Below, piece after piece: positions 3,844 to 21,320 of a stretch of 36,011 nucleotides of DNA (position 1 is the stretch's first letter; each line of letters begins with the position of its first letter). The position numbers and the translations under genes are program-made. Below the pieces are notes generated by a model. The model did not search any database. It saw nothing but the letters and a program-made list of their open reading frames with translations, and had not been told where the DNA came from. The stretch comes from Acidobacteriaceae bacterium (lineage in GTDB: Bacteria > Acidobacteriota > Terriglobia > Terriglobales > Acidobacteriaceae). The stretch is from contig JANXPR010000416.1 in NCBI GenBank assembly GCA_025357215.1, positions 1-36,011 on the forward strand. Reading direction: 5' to 3'.

Positions 3844-4500
3844 GTGTTTGTGAGAGCGACGGAGAAGAATGCGCAGGCCGGGTTCAGCCTGACCGAATTG
3901 CTGGTTGTCGTAGCGATCATTTTGATCGTGGGAGGGATGTCTCTCCCCAGCATCGCGCGTGTCGTCGACAATGCCCGTCTGAAAGCCGCCTCACAACAAC
4001 TTGCCAGCCTGTATCAACAAGCTCGCATCCGTTCCACGCAGGACAACACCTATTACGAACTGGTGAGCACTCCATCCGGGGCGCGCCCGGCGCAAGTTTG
4101 CATTGATCTGGATGGTGACGGCGTTTGCGGTCCCACGGAACCGCAGATTGAGCTTCCGTCGCAAGTCACGTTGAGCAACATTGGCGTTCCTGTGGCGCTG
4201 GACCAGACAGCGTTAGGCTTTCCGGCCATCGGCGTGGAAGCCTCTGTTATGTACAACCAGCAGGACATCATGGTTCCCGGCCTGGCTTGGAACAGCCGCG
4301 GACTGCCCTGCCAACGGACATCCACGACGTCCCCTTGCGCGAACCTTACGCCCTCTGGCGCGGTGGCCTGGATGCAATACCTGCAGATGCAGCGTTCCGT
4401 TGTAGATGTTTCCTATGCCGCTGTTTCCGTGAGTCCCACCGGACATGTGCGGACTTGGTCTTACGCCCCGACTTCGAGTGGCGGAGGCAACTGGTTCTAA
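3844..4500 (+). CDS. GspH/FimT-family minor pseudopilin
   Basis: This 218-residue protein carries a class III prepilin leader: the basic N-terminus ends in QAG, then FSLTELLVVVAIILIVGGM, with cleavage expected between Gly13 and Phe14. The Glu at mature position 5 is present. The hydrophobic helix continues into a conserved N-terminal alpha-helix (ARLKAASQQLASLYQQARIRSTQ) typical of GspH/FimT. The globular part carries two cysteine pairs and a DLDGDGVCGPTEP loop. The start is GTG at 3844, with AGGA about five bases before it; a second GTG at 3850 is also possible. It is the first gene of a four-gene minor-pilin operon. FimT/GspH pseudopilins prime type IV pilus assembly and can bind DNA during uptake, but the subtype cannot be resolved here. 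Confidence 0.85.
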   Translation: MFVRATEKNAQAGFSLTELLVVVAIILIVGGMSLPSIARVVDNARLKAASQQLASLYQQARIRSTQDNTYYELVSTPSGARPAQVCIDLDGDGVCGPTEPQIELPSQVTLSNIGVPVALDQTALGFPAIGVEASVMYNQQDIMVPGLAWNSRGLPCQRTSTTSPCANLTPSGAVAWMQYLQMQRSVVDVSYAAVSVSPTGHVRTWSYAPTSSGGGNWF

Positions 4501-4509
4501 ACAACCGCC

Positions 4510-5088
4510 ATGAAAATGACTACCCCATCCCGCGCAACATCTCACGCAAACCAGACCGGCAGAAAGCAGGGAGGCTTCAGCTTGATTGAGCTGATGATCG
4601 CCATGACCGTGCTGGTGGTTGGCTTGCTTGGCAGCATGGGAATCATCTTCGTGGCTACCGCCAGCAATGGACGCTCCAAGTTGAGCACCCATGCAGCCAC
4701 ACTGGCCGAAAGCACCATGGAACGCATTGTGGCCATTCCCCAGAGCGCAACCGGGGCCGCCGCTATCACGGCTATCAACGATTGTGCCGGCAACGCATTC
4801 ATCGTAAATACCCAGCCCGGTGGCGCGCCTCTGCTTTCCAGCGGAGCCTTTGCGGACGTGGATTTCAACCAGGCAACGACACCCGGCTATGCCATGGCCT
4901 ATACAGATTGCCCAGCCAGCCCGGGCGCGGCCGGTGTTCCTTATGACGTGCGCTGGCGCATTGATCCCGGCCCCACGCCCAACACGCAACTCGTTACCGT
5001 AAGCGCCAAAGCCCTGGCTGGCGGTAACAGCCCGGTAGCAGTTTTTTCACGGCCCCGCACGCTCCACCAATTACGAGGAGACCTGTAG
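4510..5088 (+). CDS. pilV: Type IV pilus minor pilin PilV
   Basis: The 192-residue protein has a 22-residue basic leader ending in QGG, then FSLIELMIAMTVLVVGLLGSM. This is a prepilin peptidase site with Glu5 and a hydrophobic helix carrying the VLVVGLLG signature typical of PilV. The following TLAESTMERIVAIP segment matches the amphipathic helix of PilV proteins. The globular domain is small and contains two cysteines. It starts nine bases after the fimT-like stop and ends directly at the start of the pilW-like gene (TAG then GTG), so the genes are clearly one operon. PilV, PilW, PilX and FimT-type minor pilins form the priming complex at the pilus tip in the inner membrane and periplasm. Confidence 0.85.
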   Translation: MKMTTPSRATSHANQTGRKQGGFSLIELMIAMTVLVVGLLGSMGIIFVATASNGRSKLSTHAATLAESTMERIVAIPQSATGAAAITAINDCAGNAFIVNTQPGGAPLLSSGAFADVDFNQATTPGYAMAYTDCPASPGAAGVPYDVRWRIDPGPTPNTQLVTVSAKALAGGNSPVAVFSRPRTLHQLRGDL

Positions 5089-5865
5089 GTGATATTGCGC
5101 CAGTCATCATCGAATGCCCCATCGAATGCCGCCCGGGCAACGAACGTCACCAGAGCCACGCGCTCCGGCGCGGCGGCTGGCTTTTCTCTGCTAGAAATGC
5201 TGATTGCGATTGCGATTCTCGGCGTGGTTACTGGCGCGGTGTTCGAGCAGATCAGCACCATGCAGAAAAAGTCCCAGTCAGAAGCGATGAAACTGGACCT
5301 GAGCCAGCAGTCGCGCGAGTTTCTTGACCAGACTGTTCGCGACCTTCACATGGCCGGTTATCCCAAGTCCGCAATGTATGCCAACATGCCGGACAATACG
5401 GACAATCGGGTTGCCGCCGGCCTGGTTGCCGTTTCGCCGGCCAGCATCCTGATGGAAGGCGATGTAAATTCCGAAGGCCAGGTCTATAGCGTAAAAATTG
5501 TGTACGTTCCGGTTGATCCCGCTGACGCGGCATGCCCCTGCCTGCGCCGATTCGCTGTCCCCAAGACCCCAGGCAACCCGTTGGCGCAGCCAACGGCCAC
5601 CAACTATACGGAAACCACACAAGTTCTTCCCCCGGGCATCGGCCCCGGTTTGTCTGGCGAAGACCTTTTTGCTTTTTATGACATGAACGGCAATCCCGTG
5701 GATGTGACCGCCGGAGCTGATATCTCCACCAGCGGCGGCCAAGCCACCATTGCTTCCATCAAAACAATCAAGATCAATCTCAGCCTGGTCACGAACCTTC
5801 GTGATCCAGCCAGCGGAGGGTTGATGCGAACTTCTATGTCGGCCACAGCGAGGCTTAACCAATGA
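5089..5865 (+). CDS. pilW: Type IV pilus minor pilin PilW
   Basis: The protein has 258 residues from a GTG that abuts the pilV stop. The leader ends in AAAG, then FSLLEMLIAIAILGVVTGAV, again a prepilin peptidase site with Glu5. The helix continues with DLSQQSREFLDQTVRDLHMAGYP. This matches PilW-type proteins, where a RDLxxAGY motif follows the membrane helix. The central region has a CPCLRRF cysteine motif and a FAFYDMNGNPVD segment. The stop overlaps the next start by four bases (ATGA), indicating coupled translation with the pilX-like gene. Confidence 0.85.
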   Translation: MILRQSSSNAPSNAARATNVTRATRSGAAAGFSLLEMLIAIAILGVVTGAVFEQISTMQKKSQSEAMKLDLSQQSREFLDQTVRDLHMAGYPKSAMYANMPDNTDNRVAAGLVAVSPASILMEGDVNSEGQVYSVKIVYVPVDPADAACPCLRRFAVPKTPGNPLAQPTATNYTETTQVLPPGIGPGLSGEDLFAFYDMNGNPVDVTAGADISTSGGQATIASIKTIKINLSLVTNLRDPASGGLMRTSMSATARLNQ

Positions 5866-7769
5866 CCAAGCTCGCAACGGCAAAAGCAATTCGGACGCGG
5901 GAACGCGGAGCAGCCCTGCTGCTCACTTTGTTTGCGTTGCTTTTACTCTCTGCCATTGGCTTGTTCATGGTGCTCTCCTCAGACACTGAGACCCGCATTG
6001 ACAACAATTATTCCGGCAGCCTCAGCATGTACTATGCAGCGCGCTCGGGCGTGGAAGAAGTTCGCGATCGGCTGAAGCTTCCTTCCGCGAGCGGCGGGCT
6101 GGTTGTGCTGCCTCAGGATGTGGCTGGCAATTTCCACGGCGTTCTCTATGTCGTGAATCCCGCGGGCGGCGAGTTGGTGGACCCCACCGACCCGGGCAAC
6201 AAGTATTTTGATACCCAGCTTTGCCACGACTACCCTTCGGGCGTTCCCACCGGCACCAAGTGCAACGCTGTACCAGGTACCGTGGGATGGAATCTGCCCA
6301 CGCAGCCCGCCATGGTGCCGTCCATTGGTCCGCTGGGTTACAAATGGGTCCGCATCAACATCAAGACCAACGGCATCGGCCCATACCCCGTGGACGCTGC
6401 CGCCGCTATCGGCGCGCGCATTTGCTGGGACGGCCAGACCGAACAAGTTACCCCCGGCGGCCTGAACCCGGCCTGCGATGCCAATGGAATGCAGACTGTG
6501 TACATGCTTACCGCACTGGCCGCGAACCCAGGACCGGTTGGCGTAAGCGCCAGCAAGGTAGTGCGCTCAGAAGTGGTGGCGCCTGCCATACGTCCAGCGG
6601 GCGCAATCACCAGTGAAGCTCCCGTGACCGCGGCTTTCTTCGGCGCTTCGGGAATTCCCGGTACCGCGATTGACGGCCGTCCGCACAATCTGGACCGCAG
6701 TCTTTCCACCAGCGGTCGCTGCTCGGCGATTGCTCCCGTGGCAACGGATACCAACCAGTCCAGTCTGCAGATGGAAACCGCTCTGAGTAACTTGCGGCAA
6801 AGCATTGTGCAGACCGCCAACGCGTCCTGCAATGCTGACGGCACCGCAATTGGCTCCAGCCTCTGCCCGCCTGGTTTGTGGTGGGTACGTGGAACCGCGG
6901 TAGCTCCCCGCTTTATTACCAGCGGAGGCGGAAGCGGCACATCTGGCACGACGGGTACCACCGGAACAACGGGTACTACCGGTTCGGCAACCGCGTCCGG
7001 AACAACCGGCACCAGCGGATCAAGCGGCGGCGATGGTGGCGGCGACGGCGGTCATCACGACCACCCGGACCCAACACCCACGCCAACCCCCACCCCAACG
7101 CCTGTACCCACACCATCGGTCAGCTGCGATCCAACCAATCCCAGTTGCTATTCAAACCTGAATTTGGCGGCCCCCGAGTTGCGGGCTACCGCGGCATTCT
7201 TTGCTCCTCAGCTCCCCGCGGTTGCGCTGGAAGCAAATCCAACAGCTCCGTTCGTCGGCGGCACGGGCAACCAGGTAGACACCACGGTCTATCAATCCGC
7301 CAGCGTCACCATGCCGCAGAACTCGATTGCCGCACTGAACGCTTTTATTTCTTCCAACATGAACTCGCCAAACTATTTCGCGGTTTCCGCGGCCAGTATG
7401 GCGCTCTCTTACGGAACCAGCAGCAGCCCGGCGATTGTGGTCATCACGGACCCGAACCTGAAGCTGACTGGCGCTGGACTTTCCGGCTTTGGCGTCCTGG
7501 TGGTCCCCAGTGATTTCGAAATCAACGCTAATCTACAGTGGACAGGCATCGTTCTGGTGCAAGGAGCCAGCGGCCAGTTTACGATTGGACCAAGCGCGAG
7601 TGGGTACATCAATGGCGCGGTGATGTTGCAGTCCGGCGCAAGTTTGAATCTGCAGACCACCACGGCCGGTGCTGGAGACTTCCGTATTTCTTACAGCTGT
7701 GACGCGGTCGATGCGGCTTTTGCTTCCCTGCCGTTCAAGATCGTCTCAACCTCGGAAACATCGTTCTAG
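5862..7769 (+). CDS. PilX-like pilus assembly protein with Gly/Thr and Pro/Thr linker
   Basis: This 635-residue protein is much longer than usual PilX (about 170-200). Residues 14-70 carry the PilX N-terminal pattern: RERGAALLLTLFALLLLSA, a membrane helix, then a segment ending MYYAARSGVEEVRDRL. It lacks the canonical prepilin Gly-Phe site, which is normal for PilX-like proteins. Residues of about 75-350 form a globular domain with several cysteines. About 353-418 is low complexity: GTTGTTGTTG repeats, then a His/Asp/Gly patch (GGDGGHHDHPDP), then TPTPTPTPTP. The C-terminal 215 residues are a second, strand-rich domain (for example VVITDPNLKLTGAGLSGFGVLVV) resembling filament-like domains in other exported PilX-type proteins. 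It is the last gene of the operon; no pilY1 follows. Confidence 0.75.
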   Translation: MTKLATAKAIRTRERGAALLLTLFALLLLSAIGLFMVLSSDTETRIDNNYSGSLSMYYAARSGVEEVRDRLKLPSASGGLVVLPQDVAGNFHGVLYVVNPAGGELVDPTDPGNKYFDTQLCHDYPSGVPTGTKCNAVPGTVGWNLPTQPAMVPSIGPLGYKWVRINIKTNGIGPYPVDAAAAIGARICWDGQTEQVTPGGLNPACDANGMQTVYMLTALAANPGPVGVSASKVVRSEVVAPAIRPAGAITSEAPVTAAFFGASGIPGTAIDGRPHNLDRSLSTSGRCSAIAPVATDTNQSSLQMETALSNLRQSIVQTANASCNADGTAIGSSLCPPGLWWVRGTAVAPRFITSGGGSGTSGTTGTTGTTGTTGSATASGTTGTSGSSGGDGGGDGGHHDHPDPTPTPTPTPTPVPTPSVSCDPTNPSCYSNLNLAAPELRATAAFFAPQLPAVALEANPTAPFVGGTGNQVDTTVYQSASVTMPQNSIAALNAFISSNMNSPNYFAVSAASMALSYGTSSSPAIVVITDPNLKLTGAGLSGFGVLVVPSDFEINANLQWTGIVLVQGASGQFTIGPSASGYINGAVMLQSGASLNLQTTTAGAGDFRISYSCDAVDAAFASLPFKIVSTSETSF

Positions 7770-8402: not shown

Positions 8403-9401
8403 ATGATGCGACTCAGCAACATTTCGCGGAGCTTTGCTTCCACTGCAACACTGTTACTCTTCCTGACGCTCATCAGCGCACCCGGCATGGTTCGCGCTGA
8501 CGATAATGGCGACCAGAAAGCCCCGGTCATTGAGAAAGTTACCTTTACTTTTGATTCAGGCAACCCCAGCCCAGTGCAGATGGATATCTTCGGCCACGGC
8601 TTTGGCAACAGCTTGCCGCCGGTCGTGCTCCTGGACGGCCTGGACCAATCCGTCCACATCTTCACTGACACGCATATCACCGTGGCGCCGAACAAAATTG
8701 CTCCCGGTGGTTACGTTCTGCGCGTTACCCGTGCGGTCCTCCGCCGCGGCAAAGACAGCAAGGACGGCGGTGGTGATGATGACAGCCGTACCGGGCTGTT
8801 TGACGTAACCATTGGCGCCGTCGGCCCCAAAGGCGACAAAGGCGATCAAGGACCTAAAGGCGACAAGGGTGATACCGGCCCGCAAGGCGCTCAGGGCGCC
8901 AAAGGCGATAAGGGCGATAAGGGCGACAAAGGCGATACTGGACCGCAAGGCCAACAAGGTCCTCAGGGACCTGCTGGTCCGCAAGGACAGGCTGGCAAGA
9001 ATGGAACGAACGGAGCCAACGGAGCTCAAGGTCCGCAAGGCCCTCAAGGTCCAGTCGGGCCCCAAGGCCCCAAAGGTGATACCGGTCCGCAAGGGCCGCA
9101 AGGACCTCCGGGACCTTCCAGCAATCTCTTTGGCGCGAACACTCAAGGTGCCGTGGCAGGTAGCGGAGCCAGCTGCACCGTCGGCGAAATCATTCTTAGC
9201 GCCGGTAGCGTAACAGTAGGCGTGCCGGCCAACGGGCAAACTTTGCCAATTGCAACCAACGGGGCGTTGTTTAACGCGCTGGGAACCAGATTTGGAGGCG
9301 ACGGTAAAACTACGTTCGGCGTCCCGGATCTGAGGAACACCGCGCCCAACGGCCTGACTTACTCTATCTGCGATAGCGGCGTTATCGCCGTGAAGCGATA
9401 G
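8403..9401 (+). CDS. Secreted collagen-like protein with tail-collar-like C-terminus
   Basis: The protein has 332 residues. A signal peptide (residues 1-32, ending near GMVRA) is followed by a strand-rich domain (about 40-110) that looks like an IPT/TIG fold: [17 protein letters not shown], then APGGYVLRV. Next comes an Asp/Gly/Lys spacer, and then 34 uninterrupted Gly-X-Y triplets at residues 138-239 ([18 protein letters not shown]). The last 90 residues resemble the phage tail collar fold: [19 protein letters not shown], then [13 protein letters not shown] and FGVPDLRN. Such Gly-X-Y proteins fold into trimeric triple helices, with the collar domain as a plausible trimerisation knob. AAGAAGGA lies six bases before the ATG, and a strong terminator follows. 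It is likely a surface fibre. Proximity to the pilin operon is notable but does not prove a link. Confidence 0.85.
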
Positions 9402-9589: not shown

Positions 9590-11203
9590 CTATATCCCGA
9601 TAATCTCGCCCTTTGCGTTTACGTCCACGCTCGCCGCGCGCGAAACTTTAGGCAATCCGGGCATCAGCATCATGTTGCCGGAGATCACCACAACAAATCC
9701 TGCGCCTGCGGAAAGAGACGCGTCCGTCACGTTGAGCGTCCATCCAGAAGGCGCTCCCAGCATCTTGGGATTGTCCGTGAACGAGTACTGCGTCTTGGCG
9801 ATGCACACTGGCAGCTTGCCAAAACCCCAGTCCTTGAACTGTTGCAGCTTGGCTTTTGCTTTGTCGCTCAGATTGACGCCTGCTGCGCCGTAGATGTTGG
9901 TGGCAACTTTGGCAATCTTGTCTTCTAGCGCGTCTTCGAGCGTGTAGATCGGCTGGACATTGGGGCTCGGGTTCTTGTCGATCGTCTCCACAACTTTCTG
10001 CGCCAGCGCCATGGCCCCTTCGCCACCTTTGGCAAAAGCTTCACTCAACGCAAATTCAGCGCCGTGCTGCGCGCAGTAGTCGGCCATGCGCTTCAGGTCG
10101 GCATCGGTGTCGTTGGGGAAGCGGTTGATCGCCACCACCACCGGCACACCGAAACGTTGCATGTTCTGGATGTGACGAGCCAGGTTCGGGAAACCTTTCT
10201 CCAGATCGCCTTCACCTTGGTTGCGCAAACTTTGCACCGTGGTGACCAGAACGGCGCAGGCCGGAGCGATTCCGGACGAGCGCATCACAATATCAAAATA
10301 CTTTTCCGCGCCCAGGTCGGCGGCGAATCCGGCTTCGTTCACCACGTAGTCGGCCAGCCGCACACCCATCATTTGCGAAATAATGCTGCTGGTGCCGTGC
10401 GCTATGTTGCCGAACGGCCCAGTGTGCACCATGGCCGGCGTGCCTTCCGTGGTCTGCACCAGGTTGGGAAGGATCGCGTCCGTCAGCAGGGCCATCATGG
10501 CGCCGCTGGCGCTCAGGTCTTTAGCGCGGATCGGTTTGCCTGATTTGGAAACGCCTACGATAATCGAATCGAGCCGGTGGCGCAGATCTTCAAGACCGTT
10601 GGCCAAGGCCATCACGGCCATCACTTCTGACGCCGCCGTGATCACGAAACCTGTTTGGCGGGTGGGCCCGCCCTTTTTCTCGCCAATTTCCACGGTGATG
10701 CGCCGCAGCGCGCGGTCATTCATGTCCATGGCGCGCGGCCAGGTGATCTGGTCAGGATCAAGCTGCAGATCGTTGCCGTGGAAAAGATGGGCGTCCACCA
10801 GCGCGGCCAAGAGATTGTGGGCCGACGTGATGGCGTGAAAATCTCCGTGAAAGTGCAGATTGATTTTCTGGCTCGGCTCGATCTGCGACTTGCCTCCGCC
10901 GGCGGCTCCGCCCTTCATGCCGAATACCGGACCGAGCGAAGGTTCGCGGGAGGTGATGATGGTCCTACGGCCAATACGTTCCAGTCCTTGCGTGAGACCA
11001 ATGGACGTAACGGTCTTACCTTCACCCGACGCCGTGGGTGTGGTGGCTGTTACCAGAATCAGCTTTCCGCGCTTGGGAAACTTCGGGTCAGCGAGCAAGC
11101 CCAGGTTCAGCTTGGCGCCGTGACGGCCCAGCGGTTCGTAGTGGCTTTCAGGCAGATTGAGCTTGCCCGCAATGGTTTGGATCGGCAGTAAATTTTGGCT
11201 CAT
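9590..11203 (-). CDS. fhs: Formate-tetrahydrofolate ligase
   Basis: This 537-residue enzyme joins formate to tetrahydrofolate with ATP to give 10-formyl-tetrahydrofolate in the cytoplasm. The nucleotide-binding loop TPTASGEGKT is at residues 55-64, preceded by LILVTATTP. Further family blocks are LREPSLGPVFGMKGGAAGGG (here with SREP), the HFHGDFHAITSAHNLL motif, GNIAHGTSS, and the C-terminal VNAKGEIIGI. The length is close to the usual 550-560. It stands alone, convergent with the collagen-like gene. Its product feeds purine synthesis and serine/glycine one-carbon exchange. It could also handle one-carbon units released by the demethylation genes proposed at 28-35 kb, although it is not linked to them by operon. 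Confidence 0.97.
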   Translation of the reverse strand: MSQNLLPIQTIAGKLNLPESHYEPLGRHGAKLNLGLLADPKFPKRGKLILVTATTPTASGEGKTVTSIGLTQGLERIGRRTIITSREPSLGPVFGMKGGAAGGGKSQIEPSQKINLHFHGDFHAITSAHNLLAALVDAHLFHGNDLQLDPDQITWPRAMDMNDRALRRITVEIGEKKGGPTRQTGFVITAASEVMAVMALANGLEDLRHRLDSIIVGVSKSGKPIRAKDLSASGAMMALLTDAILPNLVQTTEGTPAMVHTGPFGNIAHGTSSIISQMMGVRLADYVVNEAGFAADLGAEKYFDIVMRSSGIAPACAVLVTTVQSLRNQGEGDLEKGFPNLARHIQNMQRFGVPVVVAINRFPNDTDADLKRMADYCAQHGAEFALSEAFAKGGEGAMALAQKVVETIDKNPSPNVQPIYTLEDALEDKIAKVATNIYGAAGVNLSDKAKAKLQQFKDWGFGKLPVCIAKTQYSFTDNPKMLGAPSGWTLNVTDASLSAGAGFVVVISGNMMLMPGLPKVSRAASVDVNAKGEIIGI

Positions 11204-11525: not shown

Positions 11526-12410
11526 TCACATGGTCAAATTAGGCGTCTTCAATTCAGCGCCCGCGATCATCGTTGCATGCTCCGGATAAACCAGGGTTTC
11601 TCCGCTCGAAAACGCCGGCGCCACCGGCAACGCCGCGATCAATTTGCGGGTGTACGCATGCAACGGGTTAGTAAAGAGCTCGGCCGTTTTGCGGCACTCA
11701 ACGATCTCCCCCTGGGACATCACTGCCACGCGATGGCTGATCTTGGCCACCGAAAGAAGATCATGCGAAATATAAAGGATGCTCATCCCCAGCTTCCTGC
11801 TCAGACTTGAAAACAATTCCAACACTTCTGACTGGATAATGATGTCCAGCGCGCTGGTTGGTTCGTCGGCAATCAGCAGCGGCGGACGATGCAGCACAGC
11901 CATGGCGATGAGCACGCGCTGGGCCTGGCCCACGCTGAGTTGCGCGGGGTATTGCCGCAGAAATGTTTCGTCCGCCGGAAGGCTTACACTTTCCAGGGCT
12001 CCGAGAACGGCGCGCGTACATTCTTCGCGTGTGGTGCGCCGGTGAATATTCCATGCTTCTTCCATCTGCGTGCGGATCCGCAGCGCTGGGTTCAAGGAAG
12101 AAATAGGACTCTGCGATACCAACGCAATCTCTTTTCCTCTCAGACCACGCATTTCTTTCTCTTTCAGCGGCAGCAAATCGCGACCATTGAATTGAATGGA
12201 ACCCGACATCTTGCCGCCTTTAAGAAAAAGCAGCTTCAGGATGGCCAGAGCCATGGTGCTCTTGCCGCATCCGCTCTGTCCTACCAGTCCCAGAATCTCT
12301 CGCGGACGCACGTCGAGCGCGAGGTCACGCAAGACCGCGGGACGTCCTGGATAGCTGGCCGAGAGGCGGAGCGACAAAACTGGTTGGGCGTTCATAAGAA
12401 GTTCTGGCAT
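11526..12410 (-). CDS. Peptide/nickel-type ABC importer ATPase (DppD/OppD-like)
   Basis: This 294-residue protein powers the importer encoded by the next three genes. Walker A is GQSGCGKST, the Q-loop is ALVSQSP, Walker B is LLIADEPTSALD and the switch region is ISHD. The signature motif reads LSVGQ rather than LSGGQ. The C-terminal tail (LFTNPLHAYTRKLIAALP) is the typical oligopeptide/dipeptide ATPase extension. No Cys cluster is obvious in that tail, although many relatives have an iron-sulfur site there. It is translationally coupled to the binding protein gene by a TAATG overlap. Only one ATPase is present, whereas most Dpp/Opp systems use a D/F pair, so it either acts as a homodimer or has a partner elsewhere. 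Confidence 0.9.
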   Translation of the reverse strand: MPELLMNAQPVLSLRLSASYPGRPAVLRDLALDVRPREILGLVGQSGCGKSTMALAILKLLFLKGGKMSGSIQFNGRDLLPLKEKEMRGLRGKEIALVSQSPISSLNPALRIRTQMEEAWNIHRRTTREECTRAVLGALESVSLPADETFLRQYPAQLSVGQAQRVLIAMAVLHRPPLLIADEPTSALDIIIQSEVLELFSSLSRKLGMSILYISHDLLSVAKISHRVAVMSQGEIVECRKTAELFTNPLHAYTRKLIAALPVAPAFSSGETLVYPEHATMIAGAELKTPNLTM

Positions 12411-14041
12411 TAGCGGTTCTGTGCTACCTCACTGCCGAGCGACAGCTGATCAATGTTCCAATACACCTGCGGCCGCAAAACTACCGGGTGCGCGTTGCGT
12501 AGGTTCTTAGACACCGCCGACATCGCGTTCTTGTTCACCAGATAGATGAACGGTTCCTGCTGCCACACAATTTCCTGCACGCGGTCAACGGCTTGCTTGC
12601 GCTTCTTCTGGTCGAGCGTGGACGCCTGGGCCCGCATCAGCTTGTCAATCTCCGCTTCCCATGTGGTGGCTGGAGTTTTCTGCTCCGGGTTCCACTGGTG
12701 CTGCTCCGCCGAACTCAGCCAGACATTCATTTGCGAATTGGGGTCAAGATCGTTGTTCACCAATCCCAGCAATGAAGCCTCGTAGTCAAACGTCCGCGTG
12801 ATGCGCTCAATCAGAGACGGGAAATCCAGCGTGACCACGTTCAACCGGATTCCGATCCCAGCGAGGTCCTGCTGGATCATGGTCGCCATGCGTTCGCGAT
12901 ATTTATTGCCGGCATTGGTGATGATGGAAAACTCCACCGCATGTCCTTCGCGATCGCGAAGCACGCCATTTTGCAGGCGAAATCCATCGTTAGCCAGCAT
13001 CTGCAATGCGGCCTTCTGGTCAAAAGCATGCGGCTGGAGCTTGGCGTTGAACCAGACTTTGTTCGCGGGAGATACCCAGCTCACCGCAGGTTGCGCGTGT
13101 CCGCGAAAGACCACACGCGCCAGATCTTCACGGTTAATGGAGTTGGAGATCGCCCGGCGGAAATTCGTGGAAGTAAACCACGCTTTCTTGTACGCCGGCA
13201 GCGGCGAAGATGCTACCTGGTTAAACCACATCTGTTCGGAATCGAGCGAAACGCCGGCTTCGGTCACCGTGCCCGGCGCCTGCGCTGCCAACTTGTCAAA
13301 ATATTCCGGATCCACTGCGTTGATGAAGTCAATTTCACCGCGTACCAGGCGGAGCATCTCAACGTCACGGTTCTGCTGGATATCCAGACGAACAGAATTG
13401 ATATATGGCAACTGGACACCAGCGGCATCGTGCTTCCAGTAATTCGGGTTACGTTTCAGCAACAAATAAGAACCGGCTTTGTTCTCGGCTACATAATAAG
13501 GTCCGAGCACTGCCATCTCTTTCTTGGGTGAAGACGCGGACATGATCGCGACCTGATCAAAAAGCTTGTCCAGTCCGACGACCGGTGCCGGAAAGATGAC
13601 AGTAACCCGGTCCTTGGCTTCCACCTTGGTGATGACTTTGCCTTCGGCCGAACGGAATGAATCTCCGGTAGGCGAGTGCAGTGCGGGGTCCATCAACTGT
13701 TGCATGGTATAAGCGACATCGTCGGCAGAGAACGCCGTGCCGTCAGAAAAGTGCACGCCAGCGCGAAGCTTGAAGCTAATCGTCTTCCCTTCTTCACTGA
13801 CTTTCCACGAAGTCGCCAACTCGGGCTCCAATTGCTGAGTAAGCCGGTTCAAGCGCATCAGCACGCCGCCGGTGAGATAACGCACGGTTTCGGACGACTC
13901 ATCGGCCATCAATACCGGGTTCAACGTTTTGGGCTCCGAATGCAAGCAGAACCGCAGCTGGCTTCCGGATTGCGCGAAGGCCGCACCGGTGACCGCAACG
14001 AATAAAAGTAAAACTCCAAGACGAACCAGACGTTGTCTCAT
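12410..14041 (-). CDS. ABC importer substrate-binding protein, family 5
   Basis: The protein has 543 residues from the ATG at 14041, chosen because AGGAG lies eight bases upstream and the product then begins with a good signal peptide (MRQRLVRLGVLLLFVAVTG, ending AFAQ). A start 13 codons earlier would put a polar stretch in front. Family features are LRFCLHSEPKTLNPVL at the mature N-terminus, TSWKVSEEGKTISFKLRAGV, HFSDGTAFSADDVAYT, and LKRNPNYW. These identify the DppA/OppA/NikA family, which binds peptides or other small solutes in the periplasm. The cargo cannot be told from sequence. The start overlaps the permease stop by four bases (ATGA), and the stop overlaps the ATPase start. Confidence 0.92.
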   Translation of the reverse strand: MRQRLVRLGVLLLFVAVTGAAFAQSGSQLRFCLHSEPKTLNPVLMADESSETVRYLTGGVLMRLNRLTQQLEPELATSWKVSEEGKTISFKLRAGVHFSDGTAFSADDVAYTMQQLMDPALHSPTGDSFRSAEGKVITKVEAKDRVTVIFPAPVVGLDKLFDQVAIMSASSPKKEMAVLGPYYVAENKAGSYLLLKRNPNYWKHDAAGVQLPYINSVRLDIQQNRDVEMLRLVRGEIDFINAVDPEYFDKLAAQAPGTVTEAGVSLDSEQMWFNQVASSPLPAYKKAWFTSTNFRRAISNSINREDLARVVFRGHAQPAVSWVSPANKVWFNAKLQPHAFDQKAALQMLANDGFRLQNGVLRDREGHAVEFSIITNAGNKYRERMATMIQQDLAGIGIRLNVVTLDFPSLIERITRTFDYEASLLGLVNNDLDPNSQMNVWLSSAEQHQWNPEQKTPATTWEAEIDKLMRAQASTLDQKKRKQAVDRVQEIVWQQEPFIYLVNKNAMSAVSKNLRNAHPVVLRPQVYWNIDQLSLGSEVAQNR

Positions 14042-14844
14042 ACAGAAAGCTCCTGTTTTTTCATAGCAAGGTGAAAGCAACTAACGACGGCGATCAATAG
14101 AACTAAAGGAACGAATTGCCAGGGCTGAGAGGAAAGAGGCGAGAAGCTTTCCAGCTCACGCAGCAGGCTACCCCAGGACGGAAGCGGCTCCGCCACGCCC
14201 AGACCAAGAGCACCCAGGTTGGCCTCCGCAAGAATGAAGACCGGCACGGCGATCCAAAATTGTGCGTAAAGTACCGGTTTCAAGTTGGGAACAATATGCC
14301 GCCACAACAGCCGGAAGCCGCCGCTGCCGGAAGCGCGCGCGCGCAGAATGAAATCCGACTGGCAAAACGTGCGGGCGTCGGCACAGATCACGCGCGCAGC
14401 CGCGGCCCATCCCAGGCAGCCGAGCAAGGCAAAAGTGATCAACACGGACGTAAACGGCGCAGTGTTCAAAGGCAGCAGAGCGCGTACGGTAATCAACAAA
14501 AACAGCCAGGGCAAAGACAGAAATAAATCCGTCGCGGCCATCACGCAACGCTCGAGCCATCCGCCAACGAACCCCGCCGTCCCACCAATTAGCGCGGCCA
14601 GAATGCTGGCCAGCAACGCGGCTGCGGGGGCCAGCAAGAGAGAAACGCGCGTACCGTAAAGCACGCGGGAAAAACGGTCGCGGCCCAGAGAGTCCGTACC
14701 CAGAAGATGCTGGTGCGAAGGCGCGGCGTCCGGAACGTCACGAAACTGGCGGGCGTAAGGCGCAGGCGCGACAAAGTCCGCGAACAAGCACGCGGCGGAT
14801 ACCACGACCAGAAAAGCCAAAGCTGTGATGCGGGCCACCTTCAT
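14038..14844 (-). CDS. ABC importer permease, DppC/OppC-like
   Basis: This 268-residue inner-membrane protein has an N-terminal helix (RITALAFLVVVSAACLFADF) followed by the DppC hallmark HLLGTDSLGRDRFSRVLYGTRVSL. About five more membrane segments follow. The ATPase-coupling (EAA) loop is visible as DFILRARASGSGGFRLLWRHIVPN. The motif LGLGVAEPLPSWGSLLRE matches the conserved LGLGxxxPxPxWGxml block. The gene overlaps the DppB-like gene upstream and the binding-protein gene downstream, each by ATGA, so all four are one transcript. Confidence 0.9.
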   Translation of the reverse strand: MKVARITALAFLVVVSAACLFADFVAPAPYARQFRDVPDAAPSHQHLLGTDSLGRDRFSRVLYGTRVSLLLAPAAALLASILAALIGGTAGFVGGWLERCVMAATDLFLSLPWLFLLITVRALLPLNTAPFTSVLITFALLGCLGWAAAARVICADARTFCQSDFILRARASGSGGFRLLWRHIVPNLKPVLYAQFWIAVPVFILAEANLGALGLGVAEPLPSWGSLLRELESFSPLSSQPWQFVPLVLLIAVVSCFHLAMKKQELSV

Positions 14845-15731
14845 ACTGCACCTGCCCGCGCCGAATTGCCCAACAGGTCAGACGCAGAGTTGGCCACCAG
14901 CGTGACCGCGGTGACAACCATGGTTAAGTTCACCAGCAGTTCCAGGTCGCGACCGAGAGCGGCCTTCCATGCAAGTTGTCCAATGCCCGGCAGATCGCAG
15001 AGGGCTTCCACGGGAATGGCAGCGGCGAACGCAACACTCACAGAGACTCCGGCCAAAGCCAGCAACTGCGGCGCGGCCACGGGAAGCACGTGCCACAGCA
15101 GCACCCTGGTTCCGCCTAATCCTTTTGCTCTTGCCGTTAACACGTGCGGCATGGCCGCAGTGCGCGCAAGCAAATTTCGCGCGTAGCGGAAGATCTTGGG
15201 AAACACGATCAACCCTAGCACTAACCGCGCTGGCGCCTGAGCGATCACAAATAAAATCGCCATCACCGCCGCGGGTACACAAAGCAAGACTCCGGCCAAC
15301 AAGCTGCCGAACAAGTCGACAAACCAGCTTCGTGACATCACGGACGCCAGCGCCAGCGTAAGGCCAAGGGTCCACGCCAGAGCCAATCCCAGTCCCACGG
15401 ACTTAAGTGTTTCCGGCAAGCGATCCTTAAGAAGCTGAGTGACGGGTTGCTGCAACGTGCGTGAAGTTCCGAGGTCGCCGTGAAGTAACCGTCCTAGGTA
15501 ACGAACATAAAATCCTGCCAGACTGTCTTGACTGGAACGCGATTGCCGCAACGCCTGCATGCTCTGCTGGCTTAAACGGCTGTCGAGGTCAGATTCGTCC
15601 GTGCCGAAGCCGGGCGCCACGCGGACGAGCGTTGCTCCCAGAAAGCCGCCGAGCAACAAGATGACCGCCAACCTGGTCGCGTGCACGGCGACCGTGCGTG
15701 TTGCGCTCCGAGCTGACGATGAGGAATTCAT
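14841..15731 (-). CDS. ABC importer permease, DppB/OppB-like
   Basis: This 296-residue inner-membrane protein is the first gene of the importer operon. It has an N-terminal helix, a periplasmic region with the block GFYVRYLGRLLHGDLGTSRT (equivalent to the conserved YxxxLxxxLxGDLGxS of DppB) and several membrane helices. The coupling loop is VLTARAKGLGGTRVLLWHVLP, and near the end DLPGIGQLAWKAALGRDLEL matches the conserved PGxGxLxxxAixxRDxPv block. It starts 30 bases after the GGDEF gene, so read-through from that gene is possible. AAGGAG lies about 22 bases before the ATG, too far to be ideal. Confidence 0.9.
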   Translation of the reverse strand: MNSSSSARSATRTVAVHATRLAVILLLGGFLGATLVRVAPGFGTDESDLDSRLSQQSMQALRQSRSSQDSLAGFYVRYLGRLLHGDLGTSRTLQQPVTQLLKDRLPETLKSVGLGLALAWTLGLTLALASVMSRSWFVDLFGSLLAGVLLCVPAAVMAILFVIAQAPARLVLGLIVFPKIFRYARNLLARTAAMPHVLTARAKGLGGTRVLLWHVLPVAAPQLLALAGVSVSVAFAAAIPVEALCDLPGIGQLAWKAALGRDLELLVNLTMVVTAVTLVANSASDLLGNSARAGAV

Positions 15732-15761
15732 TGAGGTTGGTTTCGGTTTCTCAACTCCTTA

Positions 15762-17153
15762 TTACAAGGTGGGTTGTACAGGAGCTTGCGCCAGTTGTGC
15801 CGCAGCCACCACCGGGTCAGTTTGCGCGTGGTGTTGCTGTTTCACGGAATACATTTTTCTATCGGCTTCAGCCAGCAGGCGCTCGGCGTCCACGCCGTCT
15901 TGCGGATAAAAAGCAGTGCCCATGCTCAAGGACAACAAATTCTTTCCGCACACTTGCTGTCCGGCTTGTTGTGCCAGAGAATTCAGCAGTACTGCCTTCT
16001 CTTTCACCGCCGCCGGCGTAATATTGGGAGCGATTACCACGAACTCGTCGCCGCCCATGCGGGCCACGTAGTCGTACTCGCGGCATACGTCGCGCACCAG
16101 CCGCGCAAAAATCTTCAGGGTCTTGTCGCCTTCCAGGTGGCCGTAGGAATCGTTGATCTGTTTGAATCCGTTGAGATCGCACACCATCACGGCAACTGTG
16201 GAATTTTCGCGTTTACAACGCGCCAGTTCCTGGTCCAGATGCATGAACAAGGACCGGGCATTGGGCAAGCCGGTGAGGTAATCAGTGGTGGCGGAATTTT
16301 CCGCGAGACGGAACTTCAGAGCATTTTCGATCGAGAGCGCCACTTTCGCGGTGATGGCCTGCAACACTCGCACGTGGTCCTTGGCAAAAGCGTCAGGCTC
16401 AATCTGGTACAGCGCCAGCACTCCTACCAGGCCTTTCAAACCTTCCAAGGGGATGGCCAAAGCAGACTTCAGTTCCACGGTGCGTTTGGGATCGTCAGCA
16501 TAGCCGGGCTCCACCATGGGATTGCCATTGATGATGGCTTTTGCGTTCTGCGCTACCCAACCGCAGAGACCTTCGCCAACAGGAATGGTCAGCGATGAAA
16601 ACACGCGGAAGTTGTCGCCACTTACGAACTCGGGAACCAGCATGTCGCCCTTGAGCACATAGGTGACGAACGCATCGTACGGAATCAGCTTACGCAGCTT
16701 CACGGAAACCAGGGAGAGCGTTTCGTCCAGACTCAGTGAGCTGCCCAGTCCCTGGCCGAGTTCAAAGAGCGTTTGTGCTTCCTGTTGTGCGGAAGCAATT
16801 GATGCCAGGAAATCTCTCTGTCCGCCTGAGCGCGAAGCGGTGCTTTCAAATCCGGCCGCTGGCTTCTCGCCGCGTTCAACTTTATAAGGCGCAGGACTTT
16901 TCAACTCCTCGCCTTCACCCAGACTGCTAAGCGCCAGGCGCTCCAGTTCCACGTAGCGGCGCCGCAGTATGTCCACGATCTTCGGATCGAATGAGACTCC
17001 GGCTTCCGATACAACTTCTTGAATCACTTTATCCAGCGGCAGGGCCTTGCGGTACTGGCGGTCGGTGGCCATGGCGTCAAAGCAATCCACGGTGGAAAGA
17101 ATGCGCGCGCCGATGGGGATCTCTTCGCCTTTAAGTCCGGTCCCCGCGCGCAT
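15762..17153 (-). CDS. GAF-GGDEF diguanylate cyclase with truncated HD-GYP domain
   Basis: This 463-residue protein probably makes cyclic di-GMP. The first 65 residues are only the end of an HD-GYP domain: GLKGEEIPIGARILSTVDCF, then AMATDRQYRKAL and FDPKIVDIL. The HD and GYP metal residues that should precede GLKGEE are missing. A GAF domain covers about residues 120-270 (IPVGEGLCGWVAQNAKAII, ALAIPLEG). The GGDEF domain covers about 290-440, with DYLTGLPNAR, MGGDEFVVIA and an intact inhibitory site (REYD five residues before GGDEF). Homology breaks near 17,142, exactly where an opposed PilZ gene starts to match. No ribosome site precedes the ATG, and a stop lies just upstream. The cyclase half looks functional; the gene is best read as 5'-truncated. 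Confidence 0.8.
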   Translation of the reverse strand: MRAGTGLKGEEIPIGARILSTVDCFDAMATDRQYRKALPLDKVIQEVVSEAGVSFDPKIVDILRRRYVELERLALSSLGEGEELKSPAPYKVERGEKPAAGFESTASRSGGQRDFLASIASAQQEAQTLFELGQGLGSSLSLDETLSLVSVKLRKLIPYDAFVTYVLKGDMLVPEFVSGDNFRVFSSLTIPVGEGLCGWVAQNAKAIINGNPMVEPGYADDPKRTVELKSALAIPLEGLKGLVGVLALYQIEPDAFAKDHVRVLQAITAKVALSIENALKFRLAENSATTDYLTGLPNARSLFMHLDQELARCKRENSTVAVMVCDLNGFKQINDSYGHLEGDKTLKIFARLVRDVCREYDYVARMGGDEFVVIAPNITPAAVKEKAVLLNSLAQQAGQQVCGKNLLSLSMGTAFYPQDGVDAERLLAEADRKMYSVKQQHHAQTDPVVAAAQLAQAPVQPTL

Positions 17154-17532
17154 CGCAGTCAAACTTCAAGACGCAGACGGAAATGAGTTAGCGTGCACCG
17201 CCGTGGACCTGAGCGCCGGTGGCATGGGCGTGGATGGCTTGCAAGCAGTCGTAGACCAACACTCGGAAGTGCGCGTTACTTTCCAATTGCCCGACTCAGA
17301 AGCACCTTGTGCGGTAACAGCGCATCTGGCTTGGGTGGACAACGCACAAGGCCGCGCCGGACTCTCCTTTTGTAACGTATCGACGGACGCACGCCAGGAA
17401 ATTCTGCAATGGCTGCGCCAGCAGATGGTGAGCGAAGGCTGGAACATTCAGCCTGAGCCAACCGGGCAGCCTGAGCCAAGTGGGCCAATGCCTGTCCTGC
17501 CTGGCCCAACTTGGGCCAACGTGGCCCAATAA
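17113..17532 (+). CDS. PilZ-domain protein, 5'-truncated
   Basis: The PilZ homology starts at VPARIAVKLQDADG (about 17,137) and includes the D-x-S-x-x-G cyclic-di-GMP motif in CTAVDLSAGGMGV, then VRVTFQLPDSEAP, HLAWVDNAQGRAGLSF and REILQWL-like helix residues. The RxxxR motif that should lie immediately before this is absent. The residues encoded upstream are antisense to the HD-GYP gene and look like noise. The tail (about 30 residues) is Pro/Gly-rich. The ATG at 17113 is merely the nearest in-frame start. The domain binds cyclic di-GMP only if both motifs are present, so this copy is probably crippled as it stands. It is divergent from the cyclase gene. Confidence 0.6.
   Translation: MGISSPLSPVPARIAVKLQDADGNELACTAVDLSAGGMGVDGLQAVVDQHSEVRVTFQLPDSEAPCAVTAHLAWVDNAQGRAGLSFCNVSTDARQEILQWLRQQMVSEGWNIQPEPTGQPEPSGPMPVLPGPTWANVAQ
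17130..17155. other. Apparent rearrangement or chimera junction
   Basis: Leftward on the minus strand, HD-GYP homology begins at GLKGEE (about 17,142). Rightward on the plus strand, PilZ homology begins at VPARIAV (about 17,137). Two genes of opposite orientation each lose their 5' part at the same point. Either an inversion or deletion, or an assembly join, lies here. Confidence 0.65.
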
Positions 17533-17696
17533 GCCCGCCGCGGTTTCCTTCGCACTTCCTGATTTCAATCACTTACAACCCAACATGTTTGGAACAGCAC
17601 TTGCCTTAGTACGTGGTGTCGCGCCGTGCTTGAAGTGCCGACGAAGAATTGCTAAAGAGCCAAAAAGAAATGAACTCATACCACCAGAAGGACGCA

Positions 17697-19517
17697 ATGA
17701 ACAAGAGACAGTTTGGAATTAGGAGAAAGCAGAATTTGAACATCATCGCGATGTTTATATTGGTCGCGGCCATGGTGATACCGGCCAAGGCCGAACACAA
17801 GAAATGGTCGTCTGACCTGGAAGGCCGGGCGTCCAACGTTCCCACAGACGTGATCATTCAGTTCACCACCACTCCCACGCAGAAGCATTACGACAAAGTG
17901 GGCAAGCATGGCGGCACGGTAAAGACCGATCTTTCCTTCGTAAAGAGCCTGCACGCTTCCGTTACGCCGGAGCAGTTGGCGCTGCTCGCGAATGATCCCG
18001 AAGTAGCTTACATCTCTCTGGACCGCAGCTTGAAGGGCCACATGAACAACGCCGCGCAGGCCGTGAATGCTCCTTATGCCTGGGCACTCGGCCTGGACGG
18101 CAGCAACATCGCAGTCGCGGTCATCGACAGCGGCATTCAAGACAACACCGCCGTCAGCAATGTGAATTCTTCGATCGGCAAGAAAGCTCCGCTTGCCGGC
18201 ATGAAGGGCAACACGGACCTGAACGCTAAAACTTCAAACACGTCACGAGTGGTCTATAGCCAGTCGTGGATCAGCGACAAAGCGGGTGCGCTGGACATGT
18301 ACGGTCACGGAACGCACGTAGCCGGGATCATCGCGGGCAACGCTTCGAATTCGACGGGCTCCGACTACTCCAAGTCATTTAAGGGAATCGCTCCTAACGT
18401 CAACATTGTGAACCTGCGAGTGCTGGACTCCAACGGCATGGGAACTGACAGTGGTGTGATCGCAGCGATTCAGACTGCGATTCAGTTGAAATCAAAGTAC
18501 AACATTCGGGTCATCAACCTCTCACTGGGCCGTCCGGTCTATGAGAGCTACATGATTGATCCGTTGTGCCTGGCGGTGGAAGCTGCCTACAAAGCCGGCA
18601 TTGTGGTAGTGGTGGCCGCCGGTAATGAAGGCCGCAACAATGCCCAGGGCAATAATGGCTACGGCACCATCGGGGTTCCGGCCAACGATCCTTACGTGAT
18701 CACCGTAGGCGCCATGAAGACCATGGGCACGCCTACGCGCGCGGACGACCTGATCACCACCTACAGTTCCAAAGGTCCCACGGCGATTGACCACATTGTG
18801 AAGCCGGATCTTGTGGCGCCGGGCAACCTCCAAGTATCGCTTTCCACCTGGGGGACAACATTGGTTACCAACTTTCCCGGCAATGCCGTTCCGATCAGTT
18901 CTTATTCCTCGGCCAGCCAGAGTGGCAACACCCAAGGACAATGGAACCCGTACTTCACCATGAGCGGCACCAGTATGGCGGCTCCAGTGGTAAGCGGCGC
19001 CGCGGCACTGCTGCTGCAAGCGCATCCGGAACTGACTCCCGACCAGGTGAAAGCGCGGTTGATGAAAACCGCGTCCAAGACCTTTCCTTCTTACAGCAGT
19101 TACACCGATCCCGACACGGGCATCACTTACACCAGCCAGTATGACGCGTTCACCATCGGCGCAGGTTATCTGGACATACAAGCTGCACTCAACAGCAATG
19201 ACCTGGGAACGGGAACAGCGAAGTCGCCTAAAGCACAGTATGACCCCGTGACCAACAGCGTGTACTTCGTGAGTGACTCTTCCGCCATGTGGGGCAGCTC
19301 AGCCATGTGGGACGCTTCTTCCGTATGGGGAGCCAACGTTTTTGTTGGCGGCCAGTCCGCCATGTGGGGCAGCTCGGCGATGTGGGGCTCCAGCGCCATG
19401 TGGGGCAGCAGCTCAACGCAGGGCTTTAGCGCAATGTGGGGATCCAGCGCCATGTGGGGATGCGTTAACACCGCTGGCAGCCAATCCATGAGCATACGAA
19501 TCAACGGCGAGAAATAG
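17697..19517 (+). CDS. Secreted subtilisin-family (S8) serine protease with Trp-Gly repeats
   Basis: The protein has 606 residues from the ATG at 17697, picked because AGAAGGA lies four bases upstream; an ATG at 17670 is also in frame. A signal peptide runs to about residue 33 (FILVAAMVIPAKA). A short I9-like inhibitor propeptide follows (DVIIQFTTTPTQKHYDKVGK, then VAYISLDR). The catalytic triad is complete: Asp144 in AVIDSGI, His204 in GHGTHVAG and Ser426 in SGTSMAAP, with the oxyanion Asn in VAAGNEGRNN. After the catalytic domain, the last 85 residues carry eight Trp-Gly (one Trp-Asp) repeats of the type SAMWGSS. It is likely an extracellular or surface protease. A paralogue follows 58 bases downstream. 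Terminal Trp-Gly repeats may anchor or bind carbohydrate or protein; that is speculation. Confidence 0.92.
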   Translation: MNKRQFGIRRKQNLNIIAMFILVAAMVIPAKAEHKKWSSDLEGRASNVPTDVIIQFTTTPTQKHYDKVGKHGGTVKTDLSFVKSLHASVTPEQLALLANDPEVAYISLDRSLKGHMNNAAQAVNAPYAWALGLDGSNIAVAVIDSGIQDNTAVSNVNSSIGKKAPLAGMKGNTDLNAKTSNTSRVVYSQSWISDKAGALDMYGHGTHVAGIIAGNASNSTGSDYSKSFKGIAPNVNIVNLRVLDSNGMGTDSGVIAAIQTAIQLKSKYNIRVINLSLGRPVYESYMIDPLCLAVEAAYKAGIVVVVAAGNEGRNNAQGNNGYGTIGVPANDPYVITVGAMKTMGTPTRADDLITTYSSKGPTAIDHIVKPDLVAPGNLQVSLSTWGTTLVTNFPGNAVPISSYSSASQSGNTQGQWNPYFTMSGTSMAAPVVSGAAALLLQAHPELTPDQVKARLMKTASKTFPSYSSYTDPDTGITYTSQYDAFTIGAGYLDIQAALNSNDLGTGTAKSPKAQYDPVTNSVYFVSDSSAMWGSSAMWDASSVWGANVFVGGQSAMWGSSAMWGSSAMWGSSSTQGFSAMWGSSAMWGCVNTAGSQSMSIRINGEK

Positions 19518-19575: not shown

Positions 19576-21320
19576 ATGAAAATGAAATCGACGGAAACCA
19601 ACAATCGAGCACAGTCATTCTGGGGTCTGCTGGCGCTTCTACTGGTCCTGCTTCCGGGACTGATGTTCGGGCAGTCTGCAAAGATGTCTCACGAACTGAA
19701 CAGCCTTTCCGGGGCCGAGTCCGTGGACGTTATCGTGCAGTATCACAAAGTCCCAACACAAACGCACTTTGACCGTGTGCACTTTCGCGGCGGATCGCTC
19801 AACAGGGACTTGCACCACGTAAAGGCTGGCGCGTTTCGCGTTCCAGCAGCCAGGCTCGCTGAACTCAGCAACGATCCGGACGTAAAGTTCATTTCGCTGG
19901 ACCGGCCGGTGCGCGCCACATCGACGTCAAGCACTCCGGACCTCTACGCACAAGCGGTGCTGGCCCAGGCCGCCCAAGGCCAGTATGACGGCACCGGCAT
20001 CGGCATCGCCGTGATCGACAGCGGAATCACCAGCAACGCGGATTTTGGCACGCGCGTGGTTTACAGCCAGAACTTTGTTGTTGGCCAGCTTTCGGCCGAC
20101 GACGGCTACGGACACGGCACCCACATTGCCGGCATCGCGGCGGGCAATGGCGCCAACTCGACTGGAGCTAACTTCTCCAAGACGTTTACTGGAATCGCCA
20201 GCAAGGCGAATCTCATCAACCTGCGCGTTCTCGATCAAAACGGGTCGGCCACGGACAGCGCGGTCATCGCCGCTATCCAGACGGCCATCCAACTCAAGAG
20301 CACCTACAACATCAAGGTGATCAATCTTTCGCTCGGACGTGGAGTTTACGAAAGCTATACTCTCGATCCGCTGTGCCAGGCAGTTGAGTCCGCCTGAAAG
20401 CCGGCATCGTGGTAGTAGTCGCTGCCGGCAACGATGGCCGCAACAACTCCGCCGGCACCAATGGTTACGGCACCGTCGATGCTCCGGGCAACGATCCTTA
20501 TGTAATTACCGTGGGATCCATGAAGCCCATGAGCACGCCGGACCGCGCCGATGATCTCATCGCCAGCTACAGCTCGAAGGGCCCGAGCCTGGTTGATCAC
20601 ATTGTGAAACCCGACCTGGTTGCTCCGGGAAACCAGATCATCTCCGTGCTGGCTTCAACCAGCGCGACTCTTTACAACTCGACCGATGCTGTCCCCACCA
20701 ACTATTACAACAACAACGGCACCACGGCGGCCTCCACAAACTACTTCAGCCTGAACGGCACCAGCATGGCGGCCGGCGTTGTGAGCGGAACCGCAGCCCT
20801 CATGCTTCAGCAAAATCCGGCGTTGACGCCTGACCAGCTTAAGGCACGCCTGATGAAGACCGCGTACAAGACTTTTCCTACGTTCAGCACGGCGACGGAC
20901 CCTTCCACCGGCCTGACCTACACGAGTCAATATGACATCTTCACCGTGGGAGCTGGCTATCTCGATATCCAGGCCGCGCTGCAGGATAACGTACTGGCGC
21001 CCAACACCGTAGGCGCCGCTCTGTCACCGTCCGTGGCCATTGACGCTTCCGGCAATTTCTATCTTTCAACCGGATCCTCAACCGCCTGGGGCAACTCAGT
21101 CGCCTGGGGCACTTCCGTGGTCTGGGGCACATCTGTTCTCTGGGGAACGAGCACAAACGGCACGTCCGTTTTGTGGGGCACTTCAGTGGCCTGGGGCACC
21201 AGCACCAGCCAGGGTTACAGCGTCCTCTGGGGAAGTTCCAGCAACTCCGGAACGTCAGTGCTCTGGGGATCCTCAACCGGGTCCAGCAAGGGCACATCCG
21301 TGCAGGTCCTGGGAGAATAA
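19576..21320 (+). pseudogene. Second S8 subtilase with Trp-Gly repeats, frameshifted
   Basis: This is a paralogue of the preceding protease, with signal peptide (LLALLLVLLPGLMFGQ), propeptide (VDVIVQYHKVPTQTHFDRV), Asp148 in AVIDSGI and His180 in GHGTHIAG. The frame then stops at TGA 20395-20397 after CQAVESA. Coding resumes at once in another frame (AGIVVVVAAGNDGRNN), carrying Ser (20763) in NGTSMAAG and eight Trp-Gly repeats of the type TSVLWGTS. Alignment to the neighbour shows that TGGAAAGCC has become TGAAAGCC, a single missing base. The triad is split over two frames. Apart from this point the gene looks intact, so sequencing error, a recent mutation or programmed slippage are all open. 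AAGGA precedes the ATG, and a terminator follows. Confidence 0.85.

Follow-up and report, generated by a model that had tools for sequence, protein, structure and literature searches.

How two adjacent cyclic-di-GMP (c-di-GMP) genes came to lose their 5' halves at one and the same point, and what is left of their function, is the question raised by this locus. The window, a 36,011-nucleotide stretch of contig JANXPR010000416.1 from an Acidobacteriaceae bacterium, contains at 17139-17141 two headless genes that abut head-to-head. The minus strand carries the tail of an HD-GYP-GAF-GGDEF gene, the plus strand a PilZ domain. An earlier note on this DNA had described a head-to-head truncation of two c-di-GMP genes, and the homology edges at this position, together with the partial Pfam profiles on both sides, bear this out.

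Table 1 Features of the window at the junction and in its flanks
Feature	Position	Strand	Basis
Peptide-type extracellular solute-binding protein, synteny anchor	12410..14080	-	75% to G030; function by resemblance
Second peptide-type ABC permease, synteny anchor	14038..14844	-	80% to G030; function by resemblance
Peptide-type ABC permease, synteny anchor	14841..15731	-	69% to G030 by tblastn, gene order shared by most relatives; function by resemblance
3' remnant of MASE9-like/HD-GYP/GAF/GGDEF gene	15762..17138	-	Pfam; 71% identity by tblastn to G030 from residue 378 on
Likely deletion junction	17139..17141	.	Codon-level comparison, blastn, family-wide DNA matches
3' remnant of sigma54-activator (AAA+, HTH_8, PilZ) gene	17140..17532	+	Pfam PilZ 47.6 bits; best relative G030 C48
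S8 subtilase with C-terminal SAMWGS repeats	17649..19517	+	Pfam Peptidase_S8; downstream of AAA-PilZ in G001 and G013

Two gene remnants at one junction

The minus-strand remnant comprises the tail of an HD_5 domain, a GAF domain and a GGDEF domain, and about 377 N-terminal codons are gone. Its reading starts abruptly at GLKGEEIP, the residues that directly follow GYP. In 25 intact homologues this region follows the pattern HE-x-(W/Y/F)-(D/N)-G-x-GYP-x-GL, of which only the part from GL onward is present in the window, with codons for R-A-G-T at the position of GYP-x. HD_5 is matched only at profile positions 116-170 of 170. As the earlier note had seen, both the HD metal-binding residues and the GYP of an HD-GYP phosphodiesterase are missing. 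The GGDEF domain (PF00990) is complete (143.9 bits, residues 291-445, MGGDEF present), the RxxD I-site (REYD) is intact and the frame is open.

On the plus strand, about 350 N-terminal codons are gone and the PilZ reading starts at VPARIAV, with the Pfam profile matched from position 8 of 102. The frame is open and the D/NxSxxG motif of PilZ (PF07238) is present as DLSAGG. The AAA+ domain (PF00158) and the HTH, both found in the intact homologue at L059, are absent, so that the remnant does not qualify as a sigma54 enhancer-binding protein. Its best relative in G030 shares 41-42% identity and adjoins the HD-GYP gene there in divergent orientation.

The earlier note had the PilZ gene losing its RxxxR motif. 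The first Arg is indeed lost and the second kept, but the motif alone does not describe the damage, which takes in the whole N-terminal part with AAA+ and HTH. In the 15 intact PilZ homologues, an invariant F/Y-R is followed by three residues and then by the position of the window's R. The first Arg is kept in these relatives, but 14 of them have another residue at the second position; RxxxR is therefore not canonical in this sigma54-activator PilZ family anyway.

A codon-level comparison with the same intact homologues places the edge of the HD-gene homology at 17138-17141 and the beginning of the PilZ-gene homology at 17139-17149. Both frames break within 17139-17141, in agreement with the proposal that a single event hit both genes, and at most 3 bases at the join could be common to both sides. 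The blastn alignments of relatives end at 17138-17139. On the HD side, matches were obtained in 171 of 398 family genomes; none of the listed matches extends beyond 17140 or crosses the join. The identical arrangement in related genomes, which the earlier note had named as evidence against its own reading, was found in no other genome compared. No repeats were found at the join, which rules out a repeat-mediated deletion.

The open reading frames listed by the gene finder start at TTG 17162 (minus) and TTG 17047 (plus), and overlap antisense across the join. These TTG starts are chance codons and the intact relatives are longer, in line with the earlier judgement that the two fronts are not natural starts.

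The intact locus in relatives

In 14 other genomes, 15 related loci have intact forms of the activator and HD-GYP genes as divergent neighbours. The two sides of the join thus lie next to each other at all of these loci, with order and orientation unchanged. Among these loci, L059 belongs to G030 and lies on the contig that L094 also represents (Terriglobia Centralia_MAG_209); L068 belongs to the same-genus genome G001 and L072 to G013. The intact HD-GYP/GAF/GGDEF protein with its MASE9-like part measures about 810-845 residues in relatives, and the intact sigma54 activator (AAA+/Fis-HTH/PilZ) about 440-670. According to Pfam, the activator at L059 (2158-3558) consists of Sigma54_activat, an AAA lid, HTH_8 and a C-terminal PilZ domain, while its neighbour (3872-6376; 835 residues) combines a MASE9-like membrane part with HD_5, GAF and GGDEF.

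The loci in G030, G001 and G013 share with the window the gene families, the divergent orientation and the ABC flank; the subtilase flank is common to the window, G001 and G013. In contrast to the window, which lacks about 2.4-3 kb, the relatives have full-length genes with an intergenic region between them. The two breakpoint positions are 2.40-3.00 kb apart in 12 intact loci and about 4.7 kb apart in the other 3, where a subtilase gene lies in between. In nearly all relatives whose contig extends far enough, the HD-GYP gene is followed by peptide-ABC genes, with the counterpart of the permease at 14841..15731 as its downstream neighbour. Every gene of the window's order has its match in G001 and G013, with the ABC and HD-GYP genes running in one direction and the AAA-PilZ and subtilase genes in the other. 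Since the flanks of the window correspond in this way to those of two relatives in which the genes are also divergent, we read the join as internal to one locus.

In some relatives (L095, L096 and L109) the activator was not found, and the gene directly opposite HD-GYP is a subtilase. The activator is therefore dispensable over evolutionary time.

Origin of the junction

We consider it likely that both divergent genes were beheaded in one step, by an internal deletion of about 2.4-3 kb at a colinear locus. This single cut would have taken out the 5' halves of the two adjacent genes together with their shared promoter region, and the ends would have been rejoined with at most 3 bp of homology, as in an illegitimate (end-joining or slippage-type) deletion. 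Both genes would thereby be silenced, expression of the peptide-ABC genes downstream would perhaps be lowered, and no pure cyclase would be made. We have good, if incomplete, confidence that the deletion is real, and it is probably so in some or all of the population sampled.

The earlier note had preferred an inversion breakpoint or an assembly chimera. Two genes cut head-to-head at a single point would suit such an origin, but the relatives have both genes as divergent neighbours with the same flanks, and the reciprocal halves are joined nowhere in the assembly. We give an inversion, or a junction of two distant loci, next to no credence. A search of the organism's own assembly (G000) for the missing HD-GYP and PilZ N-termini, which the note had proposed to look for together in the rest of the genome, returned only paralogues: 43% identity for the HD part, and 55% for the AAA part of C470, a copy with a PilZ of its own. 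This genome holds an intact activator-PilZ paralogue (C470:8850-10097).

A somewhat doubtful, though more serious, alternative is that the main allele is intact and that chimeric reads, or the deletion of a minority strain, were taken into the metagenome assembly. The assembly is a draft of 593 contigs, the junction occurs in none of the relatives compared, all of other species, and the second subtilase nearby has a one-base frameshift that may point to consensus errors or to decay. Moreover, neither remnant has decayed. The identity of the PilZ remnant to G030 is as predicted, via other pairs, from the GAF-GGDEF identity of 71% (residual -0.6, sd 6.6), the codon-position ratios of the remnants resemble those of intact pairs, and the decay test found no accelerated divergence in either remnant relative to intact copies. 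The deletion would accordingly be recent, or present only in part of the population as a minority strain, or an assembly artefact; undecayed remnants are as compatible with an artefact as with a recent event. Against an intact main allele, the at most 3 bp common at the join are below an assembler overlap, which makes a join without crossing reads improbable for an overlap-based assembler. Both sides also belong to one locus in the right order, so a random joining of two places is excluded, and neither missing half was found in the bin. This absence has to be read with the contig sizes in mind: the shortest of 20 contigs sampled from the assembly measures 2.9 kb, so an alternative-allele contig of about 2.4 kb could be absent from the bin.

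The remnants might also be functional short genes with new starts, one for a soluble cyclase with GAF and GGDEF domains and the other for a PilZ protein on its own. The GGDEF signature, the RxxD I-site and DLSAGG are intact, the frames are open, and the remnants appear as constrained as intact copies. Recency accounts for this constraint equally well, however, and neither front has a start with a good ribosome-binding site or a promoter-like site. The starts overlap antisense, and the PilZ fragment lacks the first Arg, which is invariant in relatives. We therefore regard functional short genes as very improbable. The same holds for a real, recent deletion that strips away the phosphodiesterase, the membrane sensor and the sigma54 activator from a c-di-GMP module, after which a soluble, active cyclase and a free PilZ domain would rewire the pathway.

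Expression, module and genomic context

Returning to the deletion, its predicted effect is on expression. No sigma70-like promoter was found within 15600-17700 by a scan that misses other promoter types, and no start codon with a good ribosome-binding site was found at the front of either remnant. Both promoters were presumably lost with the deleted intergenic stretch and both products are likely lost, while the peptide-ABC genes behind the HD-GYP gene are possibly less expressed. The earlier suggestion of a two-way enzyme turned into a pure cyclase assumes expression, and is unlikely because both starts, and the promoter region that the genes shared, are missing. The proposed crippling of a receptor through RxxxR is unlikely for the same reason, and the motif is already incomplete in nearly all intact relatives. 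With the signature and the I-site kept, a cyclase could arise from the GGDEF remnant only with a new start and promoter. The leftovers probably represent a recent gene-breaking deletion, or a minority-strain or assembly allele, rather than a new kind of switch. For annotation, the two open reading frames are to be filed as fragments and not as a cyclase and a receptor, which is mostly a matter of annotation hygiene.

Like the HD-GYP/GGDEF hybrid c-di-GMP enzymes, the window copy has C-terminal GAF and GGDEF domains with the GGDEF and RxxD motifs; unlike them, it has no membrane domain, HD residues or GYP. The intact relatives of the PilZ gene share the sigma54 AAA+ domain and Fis-type HTH, without an N-terminal receiver, with the c-di-GMP-responsive sigma54 enhancer-binding proteins BerB and FleQ. 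The window remnant, in contrast to this type, consists of the PilZ domain only. In the acidobacterial relatives a C-terminal PilZ is fused to the activator; the parts of the account of BerB from Burkholderia cenocepacia (PMC5552954) that we consulted do not mention a PilZ domain.

Together, the relatives define a conserved acidobacterial module, in which a sigma54 AAA-HTH-PilZ activator is divergent from a MASE9-like HD-GYP-GAF-GGDEF gene and adjoins peptide-ABC genes and often subtilases. Nothing specific on this architecture or module was found in the literature searched. The adjoining peptide-ABC and subtilase genes suggest c-di-GMP control of extracellular peptide use, and the intact copies of the module are worth testing.

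At 9590-11203 the window encodes a formate-tetrahydrofolate ligase with 90% identity to that of the same-genus genome G007. The contig therefore fits the genome, and we reject a foreign-genome origin. The c-di-GMP/peptide-ABC cluster (12410-17532) shows 71% (G030) and 73% (L095) identity to other genera and only 57-60% to its own genus. This higher identity to other genera suggests that the cluster may have been exchanged horizontally or may be a different paralogue.

Several further observations concern the surrounding genes. In the first subtilase, 18-nt tandem units at 19266-19460 encode the SAMWGS repeats of the C terminus, and the second subtilase carries a similar SVLWGTS tail. This second S8 subtilase (19576-21320) falls into two reading frames, 19576-20397 and 20409-21320, apparently through a one-base frameshift near 20396 that is either a mark of decay or a consensus error. 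Positions 8403-9401 encode a protein with long collagen-like GPQGPQG repeats.
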